Below, in pieces: positions 26,993-41,023 of a DNA stretch of 64,000 bases. Origin of the DNA: Algibacter lectus. GTDB taxonomy: Bacteria > Bacteroidota > Bacteroidia > Flavobacteriales > Flavobacteriaceae. The stretch is taken from positions 496,001 through 560,000 of the forward strand of contig NZ_FOLN01000003.1 in NCBI RefSeq assembly GCF_900112395.1. Direction: 5' to 3'. A model generated the notes under the pieces. It did no database searches, was not told the DNA's origin, and was given only the letters and a program-made list of their open reading frames with translations. The translations under genes were made by a program, and so were the position numbers. Each line of letters begins with the position of its first letter. Position 1 is the first letter of the stretch.

Positions 26993-29389
26993 TTAAAATT
27001 TGTAATCGAAAGAGGCTAAGAATGTTCTGTTTTGTTGCGGAGTTAAGGTGCTCCAGCCAGAGTAGTATTCTTCATCTGTGATGTTGTTTCCTTTAACACT
27101 TATTCTAAAGATGTCATTTTCATAATAAATTGAAGCGTTAAAAACCGTGTATGCTGGTAAAGTAAATCCGCCAGAGGTTGTGTAATCGTTCATGGTATTG
27201 TAGTCGCTAGAACCATTAAAACCTGCTCCAAAACCGAAGTTTTTAGCAAATCCTTGAGTAAATTGGTAATCACCCCAAAAGTTATATAATATATCTGCCC
27301 CAGCTTCTGCAGGGCGTAAGCCTATTAAATCTGATCTTGATGCTGATTTTGTAACTTCAGAATCATTAAAACTAAAACCACCACGTAAGTTTAAACCATT
27401 TACCGGGCTTGCGTTTACTTCTAGTTCAATACCGTTACTTTTTACGGTGCCATCTTGTTGTTTGCTAGCACCAAAGCCCATAACTTTATCGTCTACTGTA
27501 ATGTTGTAGTAGTTTACGGTAGCTTCTAATCTATTGTTGAATAGATTGGTCTTTACACCAAATTCTAATTGATTGGCTTGTTCTAAATCGAAAGATTGTA
27601 ACTGAGTGCCAGCTGTTGGATCGTTATCATCAATAGCTGTTAATTCTGGATTGATATACGAAAAACTGTTTTGGTAGTTCGCAAATACAGAAAGTTGATT
27701 TAATATAGGCTGAAATACAATTCCGAATTTAGGTGAAAATGTAGATTCATCATAAGCCTGATGATCATCCGACGGATCGTTTATATCACCTTTATATTCA
27801 AACCTGTCGTAACGTAAACTTGCCATAGCCGAAAGGCTAGGTGTTATGTTTAAAATGTTAGAAATATAGGCACCAAACACATTTTGTTTAGTTTCAATGT
27901 TATTTCTATCTAAGTTAGATAGAATAGCCTTTAAGTTATCTGCATTTACTTCTGGTTCAGAGAAAATTAAATCGCCTTGCGCATTTACGCTATGCAAATA
28001 GCCCCATCCTGAACTCTGATCTATTATAGTCGATTCTAAATAATCTACTCCAATTAATAGTTTGTTTTGTAAATCACCTATTTTAAAATCTCCAGTGAAA
28101 TTTTGTTGTAGGTTCATGGTTCTTGTTTTTGCATCAGTATCTTGTGCGTACAAAGCAAAGTTAAGACTGTTTGCAGAATTGAATAAGTAAGTATAAAACC
28201 CATTAGATTTGGCAAGACCGCCGGCTACAATAGATTGAGAAGACCAGTTGTCTGAAATTTTATAAACAGCCTCACCTCTATAATTTTGTGTAATATTTTT
28301 AATAACGACATCGTTATTGGTTAACGATTTTTCTCTGTCGTAATTTAATTCTTCAACAGTATTAAATAGTAAAGGTGCGCTTCTGTTAAAGAATAAAAAA
28401 GTTTGGTTCGTTTGCTCGTTATCCGAAGCTTCATAAGCAAAATTCAAAGTCAGTTTATTATTTACTTTATATGAAATTGAAGGCGCTACAAAAACCGATT
28501 TTTTAAAGCCATAGTCTTGAAAACTGTTATCTTTTTGGTAACCTGCATTAAAACGAAATGAGACTTTGTCGCTGGCGCTTACATTAACATCTGCGTTTAA
28601 TTTTCTAAAATCATAAGAACCTCCGGCTACAGAAATACTTCCGCCTGTACCACTATGAGGTTTTTTGGTTACAATATTTATTAATCCACCGTATGAGGTG
28701 ATCGAACTGCCAAATAAAGTTGCAGATGGACCTTTAATAACCTCTACACGTTCTACGTTGGATGGGTTTATAAAACCATTTGTAATTCCAGCAACACCAT
28801 TAACCAATTGTGGTTGTACTGAAAATCCGCGGATTGAATAATAACCTGCGCCATCACCACTTCGTCCAGTAGACGACCATAGTTTGTTTACACCTACTGC
28901 ATTCTTTAATGCATCTTCAAAATTATTAACAGACTGGGATACTAGTAATTGGTTGGTTATTGTGCTGTAAACTTGAGAGTTTTCAATGTTTTTAAGAGGC
29001 ATTTTAGAAACATAGGCACTTTGTTTTCTTGCGAATTTGTTTTTACGTTTTGTGTCTAAAACAATTTCTTGTAAAAGCTCATTTCCTTCGTATAATACAA
29101 TGTCACCTAAATCTAAAGTTCCATTGTTGGTTATTGAAAAAGGTATCTCTTTAGTTTTATAGCCTAAATATGATATGGATAGTATATAATCGCCATCGCT
29201 AATATTCGAAATTTCGAATGCGCCATTTTCATCAGTTTGTGCACCCTTTATGGTGTTTTTAATAATGGTGTTAACTCCTAAAATAGGAGATGAAGTTGTG
29301 TTGCTAATTGTTCCTTTTATTGTTCCAGATTGCGAAAAAGTGAATATGCTAAGCAACAAAAAGGTAGTTAAAGTAAATGATGTTTTCAT
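26993..29389 (-). CDS. TonB-dependent siderophore receptor
   Basis: A 798-residue outer-membrane protein. A signal peptide (1-19) is followed by a carboxypeptidase-regulatory-like domain (about 22-95, GTIKGTISNTTSSPILGVNTII). The plug domain (about 120-240) has LLVSQSVNNFEDALKNAVGVNKLW, GYYSIRGFSVQPQLVNG and IERV-like VERVEVIKGPSATLFGS. The barrel ends RTFLASFDYKF. The plug words YSIRGF and NVERVEVIKGP are characteristic of siderophore receptors rather than SusC. It should import a ferric-siderophore complex with the downstream PepSY protein. A consensus promoter and an inverted repeat lie immediately upstream. Confidence 0.94.
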   Translation of the reverse strand: MKTSFTLTTFLLLSIFTFSQSGTIKGTISNTTSSPILGVNTIIKNTIKGAQTDENGAFEISNISDGDYILSISYLGYKTKEIPFSITNNGTLDLGDIVLYEGNELLQEIVLDTKRKNKFARKQSAYVSKMPLKNIENSQVYSTITNQLLVSQSVNNFEDALKNAVGVNKLWSSTGRSGDGAGYYSIRGFSVQPQLVNGVAGITNGFINPSNVERVEVIKGPSATLFGSSITSYGGLINIVTKKPHSGTGGSISVAGGSYDFRKLNADVNVSASDKVSFRFNAGYQKDNSFQDYGFKKSVFVAPSISYKVNNKLTLNFAYEASDNEQTNQTFLFFNRSAPLLFNTVEELNYDREKSLTNNDVVIKNITQNYRGEAVYKISDNWSSQSIVAGGLAKSNGFYTYLFNSANSLNFALYAQDTDAKTRTMNLQQNFTGDFKIGDLQNKLLIGVDYLESTIIDQSSGWGYLHSVNAQGDLIFSEPEVNADNLKAILSNLDRNNIETKQNVFGAYISNILNITPSLSAMASLRYDRFEYKGDINDPSDDHQAYDESTFSPKFGIVFQPILNQLSVFANYQNSFSYINPELTAIDDNDPTAGTQLQSFDLEQANQLEFGVKTNLFNNRLEATVNYYNITVDDKVMGFGASKQQDGTVKSNGIELEVNASPVNGLNLRGGFSFNDSEVTKSASRSDLIGLRPAEAGADILYNFWGDYQFTQGFAKNFGFGAGFNGSSDYNTMNDYTTSGGFTLPAYTVFNASIYYENDIFRISVKGNNITDEEYYSGWSTLTPQQNRTFLASFDYKF

Positions 29390-29533: not shown

Positions 29534-30730
29534 CTATACGAGTATTCCTGCAGAGTAAAATGAAATAATAAAGGCTATAACGCTAACTATTATGCCTACC
29601 ATAAAAACGGTATAGGTGAGTCTGAGTATTTTATATTTTTTATCTAAAACCAAGCCTAAAAAGTATAAATCTTTTTTCATTGATGAGTAGAGGTAGTCTC
29701 GATCTTGCATCATTTCTCCCATGGCCCATTCAAAGTCCTGAAGGCTCATTTTATGGAAATTTCCGAAGAATAATAAATTTACTTTTTTATTGGCAACATC
29801 TTCTTTGGTAAACTCTCCTCTAGTTACATTAGGTCGCGTAGCCATAATAGATAAAATAATGGAAGCCACTGTAAACAATATAAAGATTATGGTTGGTGTA
29901 ATAAGATAATCGTTAGAAGGTTTGTCTAGTTTTGAAGCTAAATTAGAAAGCACCAAAGAAACAATAATAGCATTTACAGATAGTAAAATATTGGCTTTAG
30001 TATCGGCAATATTACTAAGGGTAATATGATTTTTTAGGGTCACTCTAAACATGGTTTCGATACCACGTTCTGGTAATTCTATTTTTTCTTTTTTAAACTT
30101 TAATTCGGCTTTTTTCTGAGCAAGTTTACCTGTATCTAGTTTAATTTTTTTCTTTCTATTAATTAAACCAGCGAGGTTTTTTCCTTTACGTTTTTCCCAG
30201 TTTGCGGCAGCTTCATTTGTGAAAAAACGATGTTTTGTGCTTAAAAAATCAATGTTTTCTTCTAGCCAATCGCTTTCGGATATTTTATAATCACTAATAA
30301 GTTCCCATTCTTTTCGAAGTAATTCCGAAGTATCGGTGTAATTTTTACTTCCAATATGTGCGCAATCGGCATCTTTTATAATTTTTTCAGGCAATGTACT
30401 AGGAACAACTCCCATTTTGGTTGCCATAATAATATTAGATACAGCAACAATATCGTCTTCGCTTACGCCTTTGGCTTTAAGAAATTCTTTAGCTATTAGC
30501 ACGCTCGCTTCCTCGTGGTTGTTTTTGTCCTTAGTATATCCGGTATCGTGAAACCAGGCAGCTATGATGAGTAATTCTTTTTGTTTATCGTCAATTTTTA
30601 TCAATTCTGCTAATTCAGTAGCTTTGTTTACAACAAGTTGCGTATGCGGAATGTTGTGGTAGGTAAACTCTGGAGTTAACTTTTCATTGAGAAGGTTGAT
30701 AACAAATTTTTCAGCTTCAGCTATAAGCAT
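29534..30730 (-). CDS. HD-domain hydrolase fused to a Pycsar-effector-type (DUF5706) membrane domain
   Basis: A 398-residue protein. Residues about 5-170 are an HD phosphohydrolase domain with YHNIPHT (His25, His29), the HD pair in AAWFHDTGY (61-62), and KDADCAHIG (Asp122). Residues about 180-225 are very basic and likely helical. Residues about 228-395 match the membrane domain of Pycsar effectors: LKNHITLSNIADTKANILLSVNAIIVSLVLS, a second segment at 279-297, and a third at 371-393. In Pycsar immunity such a domain damages the membrane when a cyclic pyrimidine nucleotide is made. No nucleotide cyclase is adjacent, so a defence role is not shown. It is a lone gene, divergent from msrB. Confidence 0.85.
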   Translation of the reverse strand: MLIAEAEKFVINLLNEKLTPEFTYHNIPHTQLVVNKATELAELIKIDDKQKELLIIAAWFHDTGYTKDKNNHEEASVLIAKEFLKAKGVSEDDIVAVSNIIMATKMGVVPSTLPEKIIKDADCAHIGSKNYTDTSELLRKEWELISDYKISESDWLEENIDFLSTKHRFFTNEAAANWEKRKGKNLAGLINRKKKIKLDTGKLAQKKAELKFKKEKIELPERGIETMFRVTLKNHITLSNIADTKANILLSVNAIIVSLVLSNLASKLDKPSNDYLITPTIIFILFTVASIILSIMATRPNVTRGEFTKEDVANKKVNLLFFGNFHKMSLQDFEWAMGEMMQDRDYLYSSMKKDLYFLGLVLDKKYKILRLTYTVFMVGIIVSVIAFIISFYSAGILV

Positions 30731-35121: not shown

Positions 35122-36345
35122 ATGAAAAGTACTAAACTAAAAATTCAGAATAAAAAAGGCTTAGCATTGCAAGCACAGTTAGAGTTGCCTGCAAACCAAA
35201 AACCGAATCGTTACGCTATTTTTGCTCACTGTTTTACTTGCACAAGTTCGTTAAGTGCGGTAAAAAATATTAGTAGAGCTTTAACTAATTATGGTTTTGG
35301 AGTCCTTCGTTTTGATTTTACAGGTTTAGGAAGAAGTGAAGGAGAGTTTGCGGATAGTCACTTTTCTGCAAATGTAGAAGATTTAATAGCGGTAAGTGAA
35401 TATATGGCTGCTAATTATGAAGCACCATCTTTATTAGTTGGGCATTCTTTAGGTGGAGCAGCGGTGCTTTCTGCAGCGGCTAAATTAGATAATGTAAAAG
35501 CGGTTGCTACCATTGGGGCGCCATCCACGGTTGGGCATGTTACTCATTTATTCTCGCATGGTTTAGATAATGTTAAAGAAAAGGGTGAAGTTGAAGTAAA
35601 CATTGGAGGACGACCTTTTAAAATTGATAATGATTTTGTTGAAGATTTTGGAAAAACAGATTTGCCTTCTGTTGTTAAAAATTTACGCAAACCTTTACTA
35701 ATTATGCATTCGCCAACAGATAATGTGGTGGGTATTAAAAATGCCGAAGAACTTTACCTCCAAGCGCAACATCCTAAAAGTTTTGTAACTTTAGATCATG
35801 CCGACCACTTACTTTCAAAATCTAGCGATAGTAATTATGCTGGCAACATGATTGGAACTTGGGTGCAACGTTATTTTGAACCTCAAGAAAATGATATGTT
35901 AGAGACCAACGGCGAGCAACTTGTTGGGCATTTAAACCTAACGGAAGACAATTTCACAACCAATATACAAACCAAAAACCATAGCCTAATTGCTGACGAG
36001 CCTGCTTCTGTTGGTGGTGACGATTTTGGACCATCACCTTACGAATATTTAAATGCTGGTTTGATTGCTTGTACGGCCATGACATTAAAAATGTATGCCG
36101 AACGTAAAAAATGGGATCTGCAAGAGGTTTTTGTTTACGTTACACATTCTAAAAAACATAGTGACGATTTAGGTTTAGAGCAAGAAAAACCTGGGTATTT
36201 AGACCATATCACTAAAAAAATAAAGTTAATTGGTGATTTAGATGAAAAGCAAAAAGCACGATTAAAAGAAATTTCGTCGCGTTGCCCTGTGCATAAAACT
36301 TTGGCTGGTGGTGTTGTTTTTGATACTACATTAATCGAAGACTAA
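35122..36345 (+). CDS. Alpha/beta hydrolase fused to OsmC domain
   Basis: A 407-residue two-domain protein. Residues about 1-255 are an alpha/beta hydrolase with [33 protein letters not shown] and the nucleophile elbow VGHSLGGAA, plus a late His in LDHADHLL. Residues about 268-407 are an OsmC domain with the peroxidatic cysteine in [15 protein letters not shown] and the second cysteine in [12 protein letters not shown]. OsmC/Ohr proteins reduce organic hydroperoxides with thiols. The fusion is recurrent in bacteria, but the role of the hydrolase part is not established. It ends the msr/selO cluster. Confidence 0.93.
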
Positions 36346-36469: not shown

Positions 36470-39400
36470 ATGACTAAAACTTTACGCTACATTACATTAT
36501 CCCTCTCAGTGTTTTTTATTAATGCTTGCGCAACTTATAAAACTCAAATTAATGATCTTAGCGATGCCAAGTTTCCTAATAAGGAAATTATTTATTCGTT
36601 TTATTTAGTAGGCGATGCTGGAAATTCACCAATAGGTTCGGAGTCTACAGGATTAAAAGCCTTTAGAGAAGAAATTAATAAAGCTTCCGAGCAAAGTACT
36701 GTATTGTTTTTGGGTGATAATGTGTATCCTAGAGGCTTGCCTAAAAGCGGAGATAAAGGCCGCGAGTTTGCTGAATATCAATTAAAAATTCAGACCGAAG
36801 CCGTTAAAGGTTTTAAAGGTGAAACTATTTTTATTCCTGGAAATCACGATTGGTATAGCAACGGATTAAAAGGGTTAAAGCGTCAAGAAAAGTATATCGA
36901 AGATGCCTTAGGGAAAAACACGTTTTTACCAGAAGATGGCTGCCCTATTGAAAAGGTAGAGATTTCTGATGAGGTTGAAATGATTATTATTGATACCGAA
37001 TGGTATTTGGCTAATTGGGATAAACACCCGACAATTAATGATGATTGCGAAATAAAAACGCGTACGCGATTTTTTGAAGAGTTGGAAAGCTTAATAAAAA
37101 AGGCTCGCGGGAAATCGACTATAATCGCCATGCATCACCCAATGTTTACTAATGGTTTACACGGTGGTGAGTACGATTTTAAATCGCATATGCAGCCATT
37201 ACCAATTTTGGGAACATTAAAAAATGTATTACGAGAAACTATAGGTATATCGCCAGAGGATATTCAAAATAAAAGATACAACGAGTTACAGAAACGTGTA
37301 GTAACCTTAGCGCAAGAGAATGATAAGGTTATATTGGTTTCTGGTCACGAGCATAATTTGCAATATTTCGAAAAGTATAATTTAGCACAAATAGTAAGTG
37401 GTGCAGGTTCTAAATCTACACCTACTCATAATGTTGTAGATGCATTTTCGGCTAGTGTTCCTGGTTATGCGAGGTTAGATATCTTTAAAGATGGCTCGTC
37501 GTTTGTTAGATTTTATTCAGCTGAAGAAAATAAAGTTGTTTTTCAAACCGAAGTTCATGGTCCAGATAAAAAAATAGATGAGTCTGCCTTCGAAGATTCA
37601 TTTATAAAAACGAAAAAAGCATCGATTTATAGTGACGAAGAAGTTGATAAAAGTGGTTTCCATAAAGCTATTTGGGGCGATCGTTATCGTGAGTTCTATG
37701 GCACAAAAATAGAAGCACCTGTAGTAAATTTAGACACTATGTTTGGTGGATTAACACCATCTAGAAAAGGTGGCGGGCACCAATCAAAATCACTTCAGTT
37801 AAAAGATAAAACGGGCAAACGCTACGTTATGCGTGCGCTTAGAAAAAGTGCTACAGTTTATCTACAAGCCATGGCTTTTAAAGATCAATATATCGCTGAT
37901 GAGTTTGACGATACGGTAACCGAGAGTGTTCTATTAGATTTTTACACAGGGTCGCATCCTTATGCGCCTTTTGTAACAGGAACATTGTCTGATGCTATTG
38001 ATTTGTTTCATACCAATCCAACTATTTATTACGTGCCTAAGCAAAAGGCTTTAATTGGTTTTAATGATGATTTTGGTGATGAGTTGTACATGATTGAAGA
38101 ACATGTATCCGACGGTCATGGAGATGTTGCAAGTTTTGGTTTTGCGAATAAAATTGAAAGTACCGACGACTTAATGAAAAAACTTCGAAAAGACGAAAAG
38201 TATAAAGTAGATGAAGCATCATATTTAAGAGCACGTTTATTCGATATGGTTATTGGCGATTGGGATAGACATAGAGACCAATGGCGTTGGGCAGAATTTG
38301 AAAATAAAGAAACAGGAGAAGTTATTTATAAGCCTATTCCGAGAGATCGAGATCAGGCCTTTTCTATAATGGGTGATGGCGGATTAATGCAAGTGGCTAC
38401 TAGAATTATTCCTTCATTAAAATTAATGGAAGGTTTTACTGATGATATTAGAAATATAAAAGGTTTCAACTTCAGTCCATATTCTTTAGATATGACTTTC
38501 TTAAACCAAACAAGTAAAACGCAATGGGAGGAGCAAATTAAATTCATCCAAAATAATTTAACAGAAGCCGTTATTGATGATGCTTTTACGCATTTCCCTA
38601 AGGAAGTACAAGGTGAAACGGTTACCGAAATGAAACGAGTGCTTTTAGAGCGTATTAAAAATTTACCAACTTTTGGTATTGAGTATTACAAGTTGCTTAA
38701 TGAGTGTGCGGTTGTTACCGGAACTGATAAAGATGATTTATTTGAAATTGAAAGATTACCTAACGGTGAAACAAGATTAACTGCTAGTAGAATTAAAAAC
38801 GGTGAAAAGGGTATTGTAATTTTTGATAAAACATATTCTAAAGACGATACTAAAGAAATTTGGATTTATGGTTTAGATGATGAAGATGAATTTCATGCTT
38901 TTGGAGAAGGCGATCACTTAATTAAAGTGCGTTTAATTGGTGGGCAAAACAACGATACTTATAATATTGAAAATGGTAAGAAAGTTGTTTTTTACGATTA
39001 TAAATCTAAGAAAAACACCATTAAGTTAAACAACGGTAAAGATAAATTAACCGATGATTATGACACGAATGTGTACGATTTCGCTAGGCTTAAAAGTAGC
39101 ACCAATCAATTTGTGCCAGTTATAGGAGCGAATCCCGACGATGGTTTAAAAATTGGTTTTTTAAATACCTTAACGCACTACGGTTTTGAGAGTAATCCTT
39201 TTAGTTCTCAACACAGCATTGGAGCGTCGTATTATTTTGCAACTAGTGGTTTTGATTTTGAATATACAGGCGAGTTTTCTAATGTAGTAGGGAAATGGAA
39301 TTTAGGTGTAAATGCTAAATTTACAAGCCCTAATTATGCTGTTAACTTCTTTGGTTACGGTAATAGTACACCAAATTTAAACATCGATAATGAGGATGCC

Positions 39401-40174
39401 TTTGGCTTAGATTATAACCGTGTAAAGTATAGTACGCTCTCTTTTGCGCCTTCTTTAAACTGGCGAGGTAAAATGGGTGGTCATTTTAAAGTAAGCCTAA
39501 GTTACGAGGCTATAGAGGTAGAGGAGTCTACAGATCGATTTATCAATACATTTTATGTTGAGAATGGCGCTGATAACCATAAGCAATTTGCTGGAGTAGA
39601 TGCCTTATATACTTTTCAGAATAAAGATAATGAGGCCTTTCCAACCATGGGAATGCAAACAAGTTTACAAGCAGGTTATAAAACAAATATAGAAGCTTCT
39701 AGAGGTTTTGGATATTTAATTCCAGGACTTGGTTTCGATTATAAATTAATTCCTAGCGGACAATTGGTTTTAGCTACACAATTAAAAGCGCATCTTATTT
39801 TTGGTGACGATTTTGAGTTTTATCAAGCAGCAAGTTTAGGTGGAGATAATGGGTTACGAGGTTATAGAAATGAAAGGTTTTCTGGTAAAAACGCATTCTA
39901 TCAAAGTACAGATTTACGTTTAAACTTAACTAAGCTTCGTACTAGTTTATTGCCGCTACACATTGGGGTTTATGGAGGTTTCGATTATGGTCGTGTGTGG
40001 ATTGATGATAATCTAGCTCTAGACAACAATACCGCCTTTAATTCTAACAGATGGAACACTTCTGTTGGTGGCGGTGTGTTTGCAAATGCTGCCAATATTA
40101 TGACGTTAAATTTATCGGCCTTTAATAGTAACGATGGTTTACGTTTCGCTTTTAAAGTTGGTTTTGGTTTCTAA
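36470..40174 (+). CDS. Lipoprotein joining a calcineurin-like phosphoesterase, a CotH/HipA-like segment and an Omp85-like barrel
   Basis: The protein is 1234 residues from the ATG at 36470. A lipoprotein signal ends FFINAC. Residues about 40-320 are a metallophosphoesterase: YLVGDAGN, LFLGDNVYPRG, PGNHDWYSNG, AMHHPMFTNG and SGHEHNLQYF. The middle (about 400-700) has GGGHQSKSLQLK and YVMRALRK, then FDMVIGDWDRHRDQWRW (about 593-609) and IPRDRDQAF (about 623-631). These resemble the catalytic DRH and metal DFD loops of CotH/HipA/Fam20-type kinases. The C-terminal part (about 850-1234) is beta-rich with GGDNGLRGYRNERFSG and DLRLNL, an Omp85/surface-antigen barrel signature, ending in Phe. It should sit in the outer membrane. 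Substrate unknown. Confidence 0.85.
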   Translation: MTKTLRYITLSLSVFFINACATYKTQINDLSDAKFPNKEIIYSFYLVGDAGNSPIGSESTGLKAFREEINKASEQSTVLFLGDNVYPRGLPKSGDKGREFAEYQLKIQTEAVKGFKGETIFIPGNHDWYSNGLKGLKRQEKYIEDALGKNTFLPEDGCPIEKVEISDEVEMIIIDTEWYLANWDKHPTINDDCEIKTRTRFFEELESLIKKARGKSTIIAMHHPMFTNGLHGGEYDFKSHMQPLPILGTLKNVLRETIGISPEDIQNKRYNELQKRVVTLAQENDKVILVSGHEHNLQYFEKYNLAQIVSGAGSKSTPTHNVVDAFSASVPGYARLDIFKDGSSFVRFYSAEENKVVFQTEVHGPDKKIDESAFEDSFIKTKKASIYSDEEVDKSGFHKAIWGDRYREFYGTKIEAPVVNLDTMFGGLTPSRKGGGHQSKSLQLKDKTGKRYVMRALRKSATVYLQAMAFKDQYIADEFDDTVTESVLLDFYTGSHPYAPFVTGTLSDAIDLFHTNPTIYYVPKQKALIGFNDDFGDELYMIEEHVSDGHGDVASFGFANKIESTDDLMKKLRKDEKYKVDEASYLRARLFDMVIGDWDRHRDQWRWAEFENKETGEVIYKPIPRDRDQAFSIMGDGGLMQVATRIIPSLKLMEGFTDDIRNIKGFNFSPYSLDMTFLNQTSKTQWEEQIKFIQNNLTEAVIDDAFTHFPKEVQGETVTEMKRVLLERIKNLPTFGIEYYKLLNECAVVTGTDKDDLFEIERLPNGETRLTASRIKNGEKGIVIFDKTYSKDDTKEIWIYGLDDEDEFHAFGEGDHLIKVRLIGGQNNDTYNIENGKKVVFYDYKSKKNTIKLNNGKDKLTDDYDTNVYDFARLKSSTNQFVPVIGANPDDGLKIGFLNTLTHYGFESNPFSSQHSIGASYYFATSGFDFEYTGEFSNVVGKWNLGVNAKFTSPNYAVNFFGYGNSTPNLNIDNEDAFGLDYNRVKYSTLSFAPSLNWRGKMGGHFKVSLSYEAIEVEESTDRFINTFYVENGADNHKQFAGVDALYTFQNKDNEAFPTMGMQTSLQAGYKTNIEASRGFGYLIPGLGFDYKLIPSGQLVLATQLKAHLIFGDDFEFYQAASLGGDNGLRGYRNERFSGKNAFYQSTDLRLNLTKLRTSLLPLHIGVYGGFDYGRVWIDDNLALDNNTAFNSNRWNTSVGGGVFANAANIMTLNLSAFNSNDGLRFAFKVGFGF

Positions 40175-40177
40175 ATA

Positions 40178-41023
40178 TTAGTTTAAGCTAAATTCATATA
40201 AATTACCGTCGCTTCCATGTGCTTTTTCGTCGGTAATGTATAGCGTGTTATTGTCTTTAAAGCAAATACTCTCTTTTTGAGATACGCGGCCGTCAAGCGG
40301 AATTTCTTTGGAAGTTCCGTTAAAAAAATCGTCGCCTTTAAAGTCTGTAAATACCCATACAGATTTTGGGCTTAACAACACGATAGACTTTCCGTCGTTA
40401 CTAATATCTGCTGATGTAATCCAGCAATCCATATCGCTGCAAGTATTAAATGTGCCTAAAAGTTCAGCAACATGTTTGCCTTTTTTTGCAGAAACTTTAT
40501 AAAGCGATGTTTTTCCAAAATCGTTTTTTACGCGGCTTTTAGTAAAGAGGTAAAAGTTGTTGTTATGATAGAAAAAAGCTTCGCAATCAAAATATAAATT
40601 TTTGTTTTTAGGAGGAAATTTTTCTTGGTTGGGATAAGAGAATGAAATACGATCGATATCAACCTTTCCTTTATCATTCAGCGCTGTTTTTTTGACTTTT
40701 AGAATTGCTAAGTTTTTACGTTTACTATCGTTATTTCCAAAATCACCAATGTAAAGATTGCCTTCTTCATCAGAGGTTAAATCTTCCCAGTCATGGTTTT
40801 TTGCATCTATTTTTATTTCTTCTTTAATATTGCCTTTGGCTGAAACCCCGTAAAGTTTTGGTGAATTTCCGCCGTCGTTAAGCATCCAGATATAGTCTGA
40901 GTTTACTGTGGTTTCTGCTCCAGAAACTTCATCTAAAGATTTTGATAACTCCCCTAGAAATTTAATATTCTTGTTTTGGCAACCTGCACTAAAGATTAAT
41001 AATGATATTATAAGTTTGTTCAT
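40178..41023 (-). CDS. Beta-propeller-like lipoprotein, function unknown
   Basis: A 281-residue protein with a lipobox (FSAGCQNK, Cys about 15). Repeated strand-rich units of about 40-45 residues follow (YIWMLNDGGNSPKLYGVS, HDWEDLTSDEEGNLYIGDFGNN, DCEAFFYHNNNFYLFTKS, DCWITSADISNDGKSIVLLSP, ESICFKDNNTLYITDEK). These look like blades of a propeller, as in SdiA-regulated or NHL-like proteins. The EDL, DCEA and KESI sites carry conserved acidic residues that may bind metal. It ends 3 bases from the convergent phosphoesterase-barrel gene. I do not recognise a specific function. Confidence 0.75.
   Translation of the reverse strand: MNKLIISLLIFSAGCQNKNIKFLGELSKSLDEVSGAETTVNSDYIWMLNDGGNSPKLYGVSAKGNIKEEIKIDAKNHDWEDLTSDEEGNLYIGDFGNNDSKRKNLAILKVKKTALNDKGKVDIDRISFSYPNQEKFPPKNKNLYFDCEAFFYHNNNFYLFTKSRVKNDFGKTSLYKVSAKKGKHVAELLGTFNTCSDMDCWITSADISNDGKSIVLLSPKSVWVFTDFKGDDFFNGTSKEIPLDGRVSQKESICFKDNNTLYITDEKAHGSDGNLYEFSLN

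Follow-up and report, generated by a model that had tools for sequence, protein, structure and literature searches.

A conserved kinase-fold domain between a purple acid phosphatase-type domain and an Omp85-type barrel in predicted outer-membrane proteins of Bacteroidota

Analysis of a 64,000-nucleotide stretch of the Algibacter lectus genome (the window, with positions counted from its first base) revealed a 1234-residue protein that combines, in this order, a probable lipoprotein signal, a metallophosphoesterase of the purple acid phosphatase (PAP) type, a kinase-fold domain, a β-rich linker and an Omp85-type barrel. The kinase-fold domain was previously unrecognised, and is conserved over many Bacteroidota families. 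Based on predicted models and sequence comparisons, we favor with moderate confidence the reading that this fusion is an outer-membrane-tethered bifunctional phosphotransfer enzyme, most likely periplasmic and perhaps linked to polyphosphate. The barrel, probably together with an N-terminal lipid anchor, would tether two enzymatic domains to the outer membrane, most likely facing the periplasm; the phosphatase would strip phosphate, the atypical kinase of the CotH/PI4KII/HipA type would move phosphate to the phosphatase's own extracytoplasmic substrate or to a linked one, and the substrate or the phosphate donor would belong to polyphosphate/phosphate metabolism. Bacteroidota with the fusion may hence both attach phosphate and take it off again beyond the cytoplasm. 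To our knowledge, extracytoplasmic phosphorylation is little known in Gram-negative bacteria, whose outer membrane is believed to have little ATP at hand; a conserved kinase-fold domain fused to a phosphatase on a barrel makes reversible envelope phosphorylation directly testable. Kinase and phosphatase activities do occur in one polypeptide in PPIP5K, PFKFB and AceK, but these proteins are cytoplasmic and their architectures are unrelated to that of the window protein.

The outline of the fusion was already known. Heinz and Lithgow (2014; PMC4104836) distinguished ten Omp85/TpsB subfamilies, among them 'Metallo', which joins PF00149 to a barrel and, like the noNterm subfamily, is without POTRA domains; the window protein likewise has PF00149 and an Omp85-type barrel, with no POTRA domain recognised. 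That study treats PF00149 as a metalloprotease and nowhere in its text uses the word 'kinase', and our search of the open-licence literature found no paper on a kinase in an Omp85 protein. The remark in the first-pass annotation that it knew of no described system of this kind therefore has to be narrowed: phosphoesterase-Omp85 proteins have been known since 2014, whereas the kinase was not mentioned there. As far as our tools show, the new elements are the kinase-fold domain, its conservation pattern, a split operon and the polyphosphate linkage, and the 'Metallo' subfamily thereby gains a probable biochemical role. We also considered the fusion as a subunit of the Flavobacterium johnsoniae BAM complex and found no support for this: in the excerpted text of a 2025 study (PMC12611786), BamA, D, G, H, M and P are named, none with such an architecture.

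The open reading frame lies where it had first been placed, and its translation contains all three motifs quoted at that stage (GDWDRHRDQW, PRDRDQAF and GLRGYRNERF). A TTG further upstream would add 8 residues, and ATG 36470 was retained as the start. The gene is single-copy within its own genome. The features of the protein, in window positions, are:

36470..40174, + strand: coding sequence, 1234 residues (ATG 36470, stop 40174)
36470..36529, + strand: probable lipoprotein signal peptide with a lipobox-like INAC and Cys20, from sequence
36578..37567, + strand: metallophosphoesterase of the PAP type, residues ~37-366, from PF00149, fold and metal ligands
37610..38701, + strand: predicted kinase-fold domain, residues ~381-744, from the model with its VIA and Foldseek matches
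37769..37795, + strand: glycine-rich loop GGGHQSKSL, residues 434-442, a strand-loop-strand in the model
37832..37846, + strand: R455 to K459 of the third strand, with a candidate nucleotide-phosphate lysine (putative role), from conservation
38255..38284, + strand: catalytic-loop motif GDWDRHRDQW, residues 596-605, with D599 as candidate catalytic base, from profile alignment
38339..38362, + strand: putative metal-loop motif PRDRDQAF, residues 624-631 (D626/D628), aligning with the CotH PWDxDxxF loop
38705..39049, + strand: β-rich linker, residues ~746-860, in the place of the POTRA domains of other Omp85 proteins, from the secondary structure of the model
39095..40165, + strand: 16-strand Omp85-type barrel, residues ~876-1232, from the full-length model (TamA Z 25.4)
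39851..39880, + strand: Omp85 L6 motif GLRGYRNERF, residues 1128-1137, of the (V/L)RG(Y/F) form

The phosphatase domain bears out the claim of a full calcineurin-like motif set. Pfam matches PF00149 to residues 47-296 (E=9e-9), and all five PAP motifs, GDAG, GDNVY, GNHD, HHP and GHEH, are present, the second of them containing the tyrosine that characterises this enzyme class (GDxxY). Their metal-ligand positions are kept in ~98-100% of 139 aligned sequences. The fold superimposes on human PAP (TRAP; 2bq8) with a VIA Z of 28.5 (3.1 Å over 269 residues), the human and pig enzymes both give Z ~28 against the full-length model, and Plasmodium GAP50 matches at Z 27.1. Unlike TRAP and GAP50, the window phosphatase sits inside a multi-domain outer-membrane protein.

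The middle domain, predicted alone from 74 sequences (pLDDT 89, pTM 0.88), adopts a kinase-like fold. CotH (5jd9) is the top VIA match among the PDB rows listed (Z 14.7, 4.1 Å, 254 residues) and is tied with PI4KIIβ (14.6) as the best structural match, followed by CtkA (12.8), HipA (11.6) and Fam20C (10.5); atypical kinases of this CotH/PI4KII/HipA/Fam20 group occupy the top VIA rows, and the values exceed the best Z of typically 7-8 quoted by VIA for models without a clear match. Foldseek ranked CtkA (1.3e-5) and PI4KII first. At the level of the predicted fold and conserved residues, the earlier kinase prediction is thus well supported. Its assignment as CotH/HipA-like stands only in part: the fold and the conserved aspartates agree, but family membership by sequence does not follow and the loop Asn is a Gln. 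Neither Pfam nor NCBIfam contains a family over residues 392-762, and a PDB profile search with the domain returned chance-level matches only. The CotH family PF08757 has no match in the window domain and matches one of 41 members (E 0.041); HipA_C (PF07804) matches only four of the 41 (best E 0.096), none above cutoff. Because the hhalign values are weak (Prob 36 for CotH, confined to the C-lobe, and 15 for HipA), membership in either family is not claimed.

CotH is an extracytoplasmic-type atypical protein kinase (PF08757; PDB 5jd9/5jda), and its catalytic and metal loops match those of the window domain in the weak profile alignment. PI4 kinase type II is a eukaryotic lipid kinase to which no sequence family link was found, and HipA, CtkA and Fam20C share the fold group. 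Two CotH-family genes (PF08757; L158 and L159) are also present in the genome of the window.

The residues of the putative kinase site are well conserved over 82 aligned sequences. In the glycine-rich loop G434, G435, G436, Q438 and L442 are kept in 72-77 of the 82, followed by R455 (77) and K459 (78) in the third strand, D599 (76) and Q604 (78) in the catalytic loop, and D626 (78) and D628 (77) in the metal loop; overall, ~85-100% of the sequences retain the glycine-rich loop and each of R455, K459, D592, D597, D599, R600, H601, Q604, W605, D626, R627 and D628. D599 and D626 were equated with kinase residues through motif order and the weak CotH alignment (Prob 36), which sets D599 on the loop Asp, D-Q on H-N, and DRDQAF on DxDxxF; the CotH loop in that alignment, NWDTY..HNYFLY, is present in the solved CotH structure. 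The metal-binding Asn position of the catalytic loop is Gln604 in the window protein, and Asn occurs there only in L068 and L243, as expected of a metal ligand; this Asn varies within the CotH/PI4KII/HipA/Fam20 group.

Homologues were detected at E≤1e-10 in 144 of 395 sampled Bacteroidota genomes. They display several architectures: 1) phosphatase-kinase-barrel proteins of ~1240 residues, as in the window; 2) kinase-barrel proteins of ~860-960 residues; 3) kinase-fold domains alone (~423 or ~500-580 residues); 4) phosphatases alone. The ~423-residue standalone homologues of Flavobacteriaceae (L058-L064) have an N-terminal hydrophobic segment in which no lipobox was seen. On a tree of 89 kinase domains, with moderate supports and degenerate copies on long branches, the fused label needs at least six changes. 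Five plasmid records carry relatives (three Hymenobacter, one Persicobacter, one Parabacteroides), and among viral contigs 13 pattern matches included none encoding a relative. In two species of one genus (G113 and G306), the fusion is split into consecutive genes that overlap or lie <20 bases apart:

L066:1851-5894 and L266:2841-6793: genes for kinase, phosphatase and barrel, in this order

Pfam recognises PF00149 and PF01103 on the second and third of the split genes in G306, and PF00149 in G113. That these three modules exist both as one protein and as adjacent genes argues for a shared function, perhaps as one machine.

The distribution of four key residues (K459, D599, Q/N604 and D626) across these architectures bears on whether the kinase-fold domain is catalytic. 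All four are intact in 59 of 59 phosphatase-fused rows, which represent 58 distinct proteins because the window protein appears twice, and 3 further long proteins also keep them; the aspartates highlighted in the first-pass annotation are thus kept without exception in the fused form. Among relatives without the phosphatase they are intact in 49 of 60, namely 11 of 13 kinase-only proteins and 38 of 47 kinase-barrel proteins. These counts, those of the fused form included, ignore kinship; at least one kinase-barrel protein (G208) enters twice, and L238, grouped here with the kinase-barrel form, begins where its contig does and could be a fusion that has been cut short. Loss of at least one of the four is confined to 11 of these 60, and non-catalytic versions of the fold therefore exist in the wider family. 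Residue-losing kinase-barrel relatives include L072, L073, L074, L075, L076:1476-4112, L257, L258 and L259, and the degenerate copy in L076 adjoins an intact one.

Such losses, seen in 9 of the 47 kinase-barrel relatives, raise the alternative that the middle domain is a pseudokinase, i.e. a binding or allosteric module that senses a nucleotide, polyphosphate or lipid and controls the phosphatase or the barrel. The Gln at the metal-site Asn position is in keeping with this, as is the scarcity of ATP in the periplasm, which in turn makes the phosphate donor a problem for an active kinase. However, the presence of K459, D599, Q604 and D626 in every phosphatase-fused protein checked is stricter than binding alone should need, and we judge the pseudokinase rather unlikely. 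The same residues bear on another alternative, under which the phosphatase alone matters, for phosphate scavenging, with the middle domain serving as a structural spacer. Lidbury et al. (2020; PMC8115612) report that Flavobacterium johnsoniae, when starved of phosphate, produces several phosphatases of the outer membrane and the periplasm, which would suit scavenging; but a spacer would not need the four residues, and their retention in 49 of the 60 phosphatase-less kinase-barrel and kinase-only relatives leaves this explanation very improbable.

The barrel, described in the first-pass annotation as Omp85-like with the GLRGYRNERF signature, proved to be just that. The full-length model (66 sequences; pLDDT 85, pTM 0.83) has 16 barrel strands that match TamA at Z 25.4 and BamA at ~24, and the Arg and Gly of the L6 motif are invariant or almost so in 66 relatives. 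In profile searches ShlB scored above cutoff, and the Omp85 family NF047779 matched at E=2e-17, although its 63.5 bits stay under the 200 that this model demands. No Pfam POTRA match was obtained in the fusion protein; in the full-length model, strands of the linker fall at model residues 711-825. At the N-terminus INAC is a loose lipobox, and a lipobox-like motif occurs in 115 of 136 full-length relatives. Both termini of an even-stranded Omp85 barrel face the periplasm. Since the phosphatase and kinase domains lie N-terminal to such a barrel and behind a probable lipoprotein signal, we assume by default that they would be on the periplasmic face, rather than secreted as the first-pass annotation had it. 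An opposite arrangement, with the barrel as a translocase and the enzymatic domains as passengers displayed on the surface or released, goes back to an initial proposal for PlpD, an Omp85 protein with a patatin domain, and has likewise been suggested for 'Metallo' (PMC4104836). We find it quite improbable here, given that POTRA is unrecognised, that the signal resembles that of a lipoprotein, and that the split operon encodes the barrel apart from its enzymatic partners.

For the bifunctional enzyme that we favor, gene neighborhoods offer hints as to the substrate or donor. Two neighbors in the window recur among relatives:

29534..30730, - strand: HD-PycTM homologue, 398 residues, from its BLAST label and open reading frame
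40178..41023, - strand: SdiA-regulated-like protein, convergent with the fusion, from a weak match below cutoff (E=0.0025)

The divergent HD-PycTM gene (family Pfam domains PF18967+PF01966) occurs in 87 of 146 loci, the window copy being parted from the fusion by inserted open reading frames, and the SdiA-regulated-like gene in 90 of 146. In more distant families, genes for HD proteins, SixA-like histidine phosphatases, PPK1 and Ppx adjoin kinase-containing genes. PPK1 lies within 6 kb of a relative in 7 of 59 genomes against 0.55 expected, the seven spanning 4 families, with a naive tail probability of 1.2e-6; within 15 kb the figure is 16 of 59 against 1.19 expected, seven of the 16 being one family with the same spacing. 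Because the genomes are related, the naive tails overstate the evidence. In L212 and L272 Ppx separates the fusion from PPK1, and in the genome of the window PPK1 is on a different contig from the fusion.

Because PPK, Ppx and SixA are so often nearby, polyphosphate/phosphate metabolism may be where the substrate or donor comes from, and the closeness to polyphosphate genes in several families points to a possible phosphate source. More speculatively, the domain might represent a new and widespread Bacteroidota family of extracytoplasmic kinases within an outer-membrane phosphatase-barrel machine, using exported polyphosphate or another non-ATP donor on envelope targets, with the phosphatase reversing or recycling the mark; we advance this only tentatively. 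Kinase-fold proteins are chemically diverse, and with phosphate and nucleotide enzymes as neighbors the domain could instead be an active transferase other than a classical kinase, moving AMP or another group, or acting on a small molecule or sugar. The motif order fits phosphotransferases, though, and there is no specific pointer to other chemistry, making this alternative unlikely.

The fusion and its window neighbors were also considered as one transcriptional unit, but this was not supported: relatives differ in their upstream genes, and the gene downstream runs convergently. A 798-residue open reading frame at 26993-29389 (- strand) fits a ~791-residue conserved neighbor in length and place. 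Elsewhere, a PAP2-superfamily protein is encoded downstream in 29 loci (e.g. L084:8392-9741), and a SelO-like (YdiU) gene, named by eye, lies near the fusion in 14 loci (e.g. L005:5279-6676 and L022:7-1416). The open reading frame at 35122-36345 of the window resembles, also by eye, an α/β hydrolase with an OsmC-type domain.
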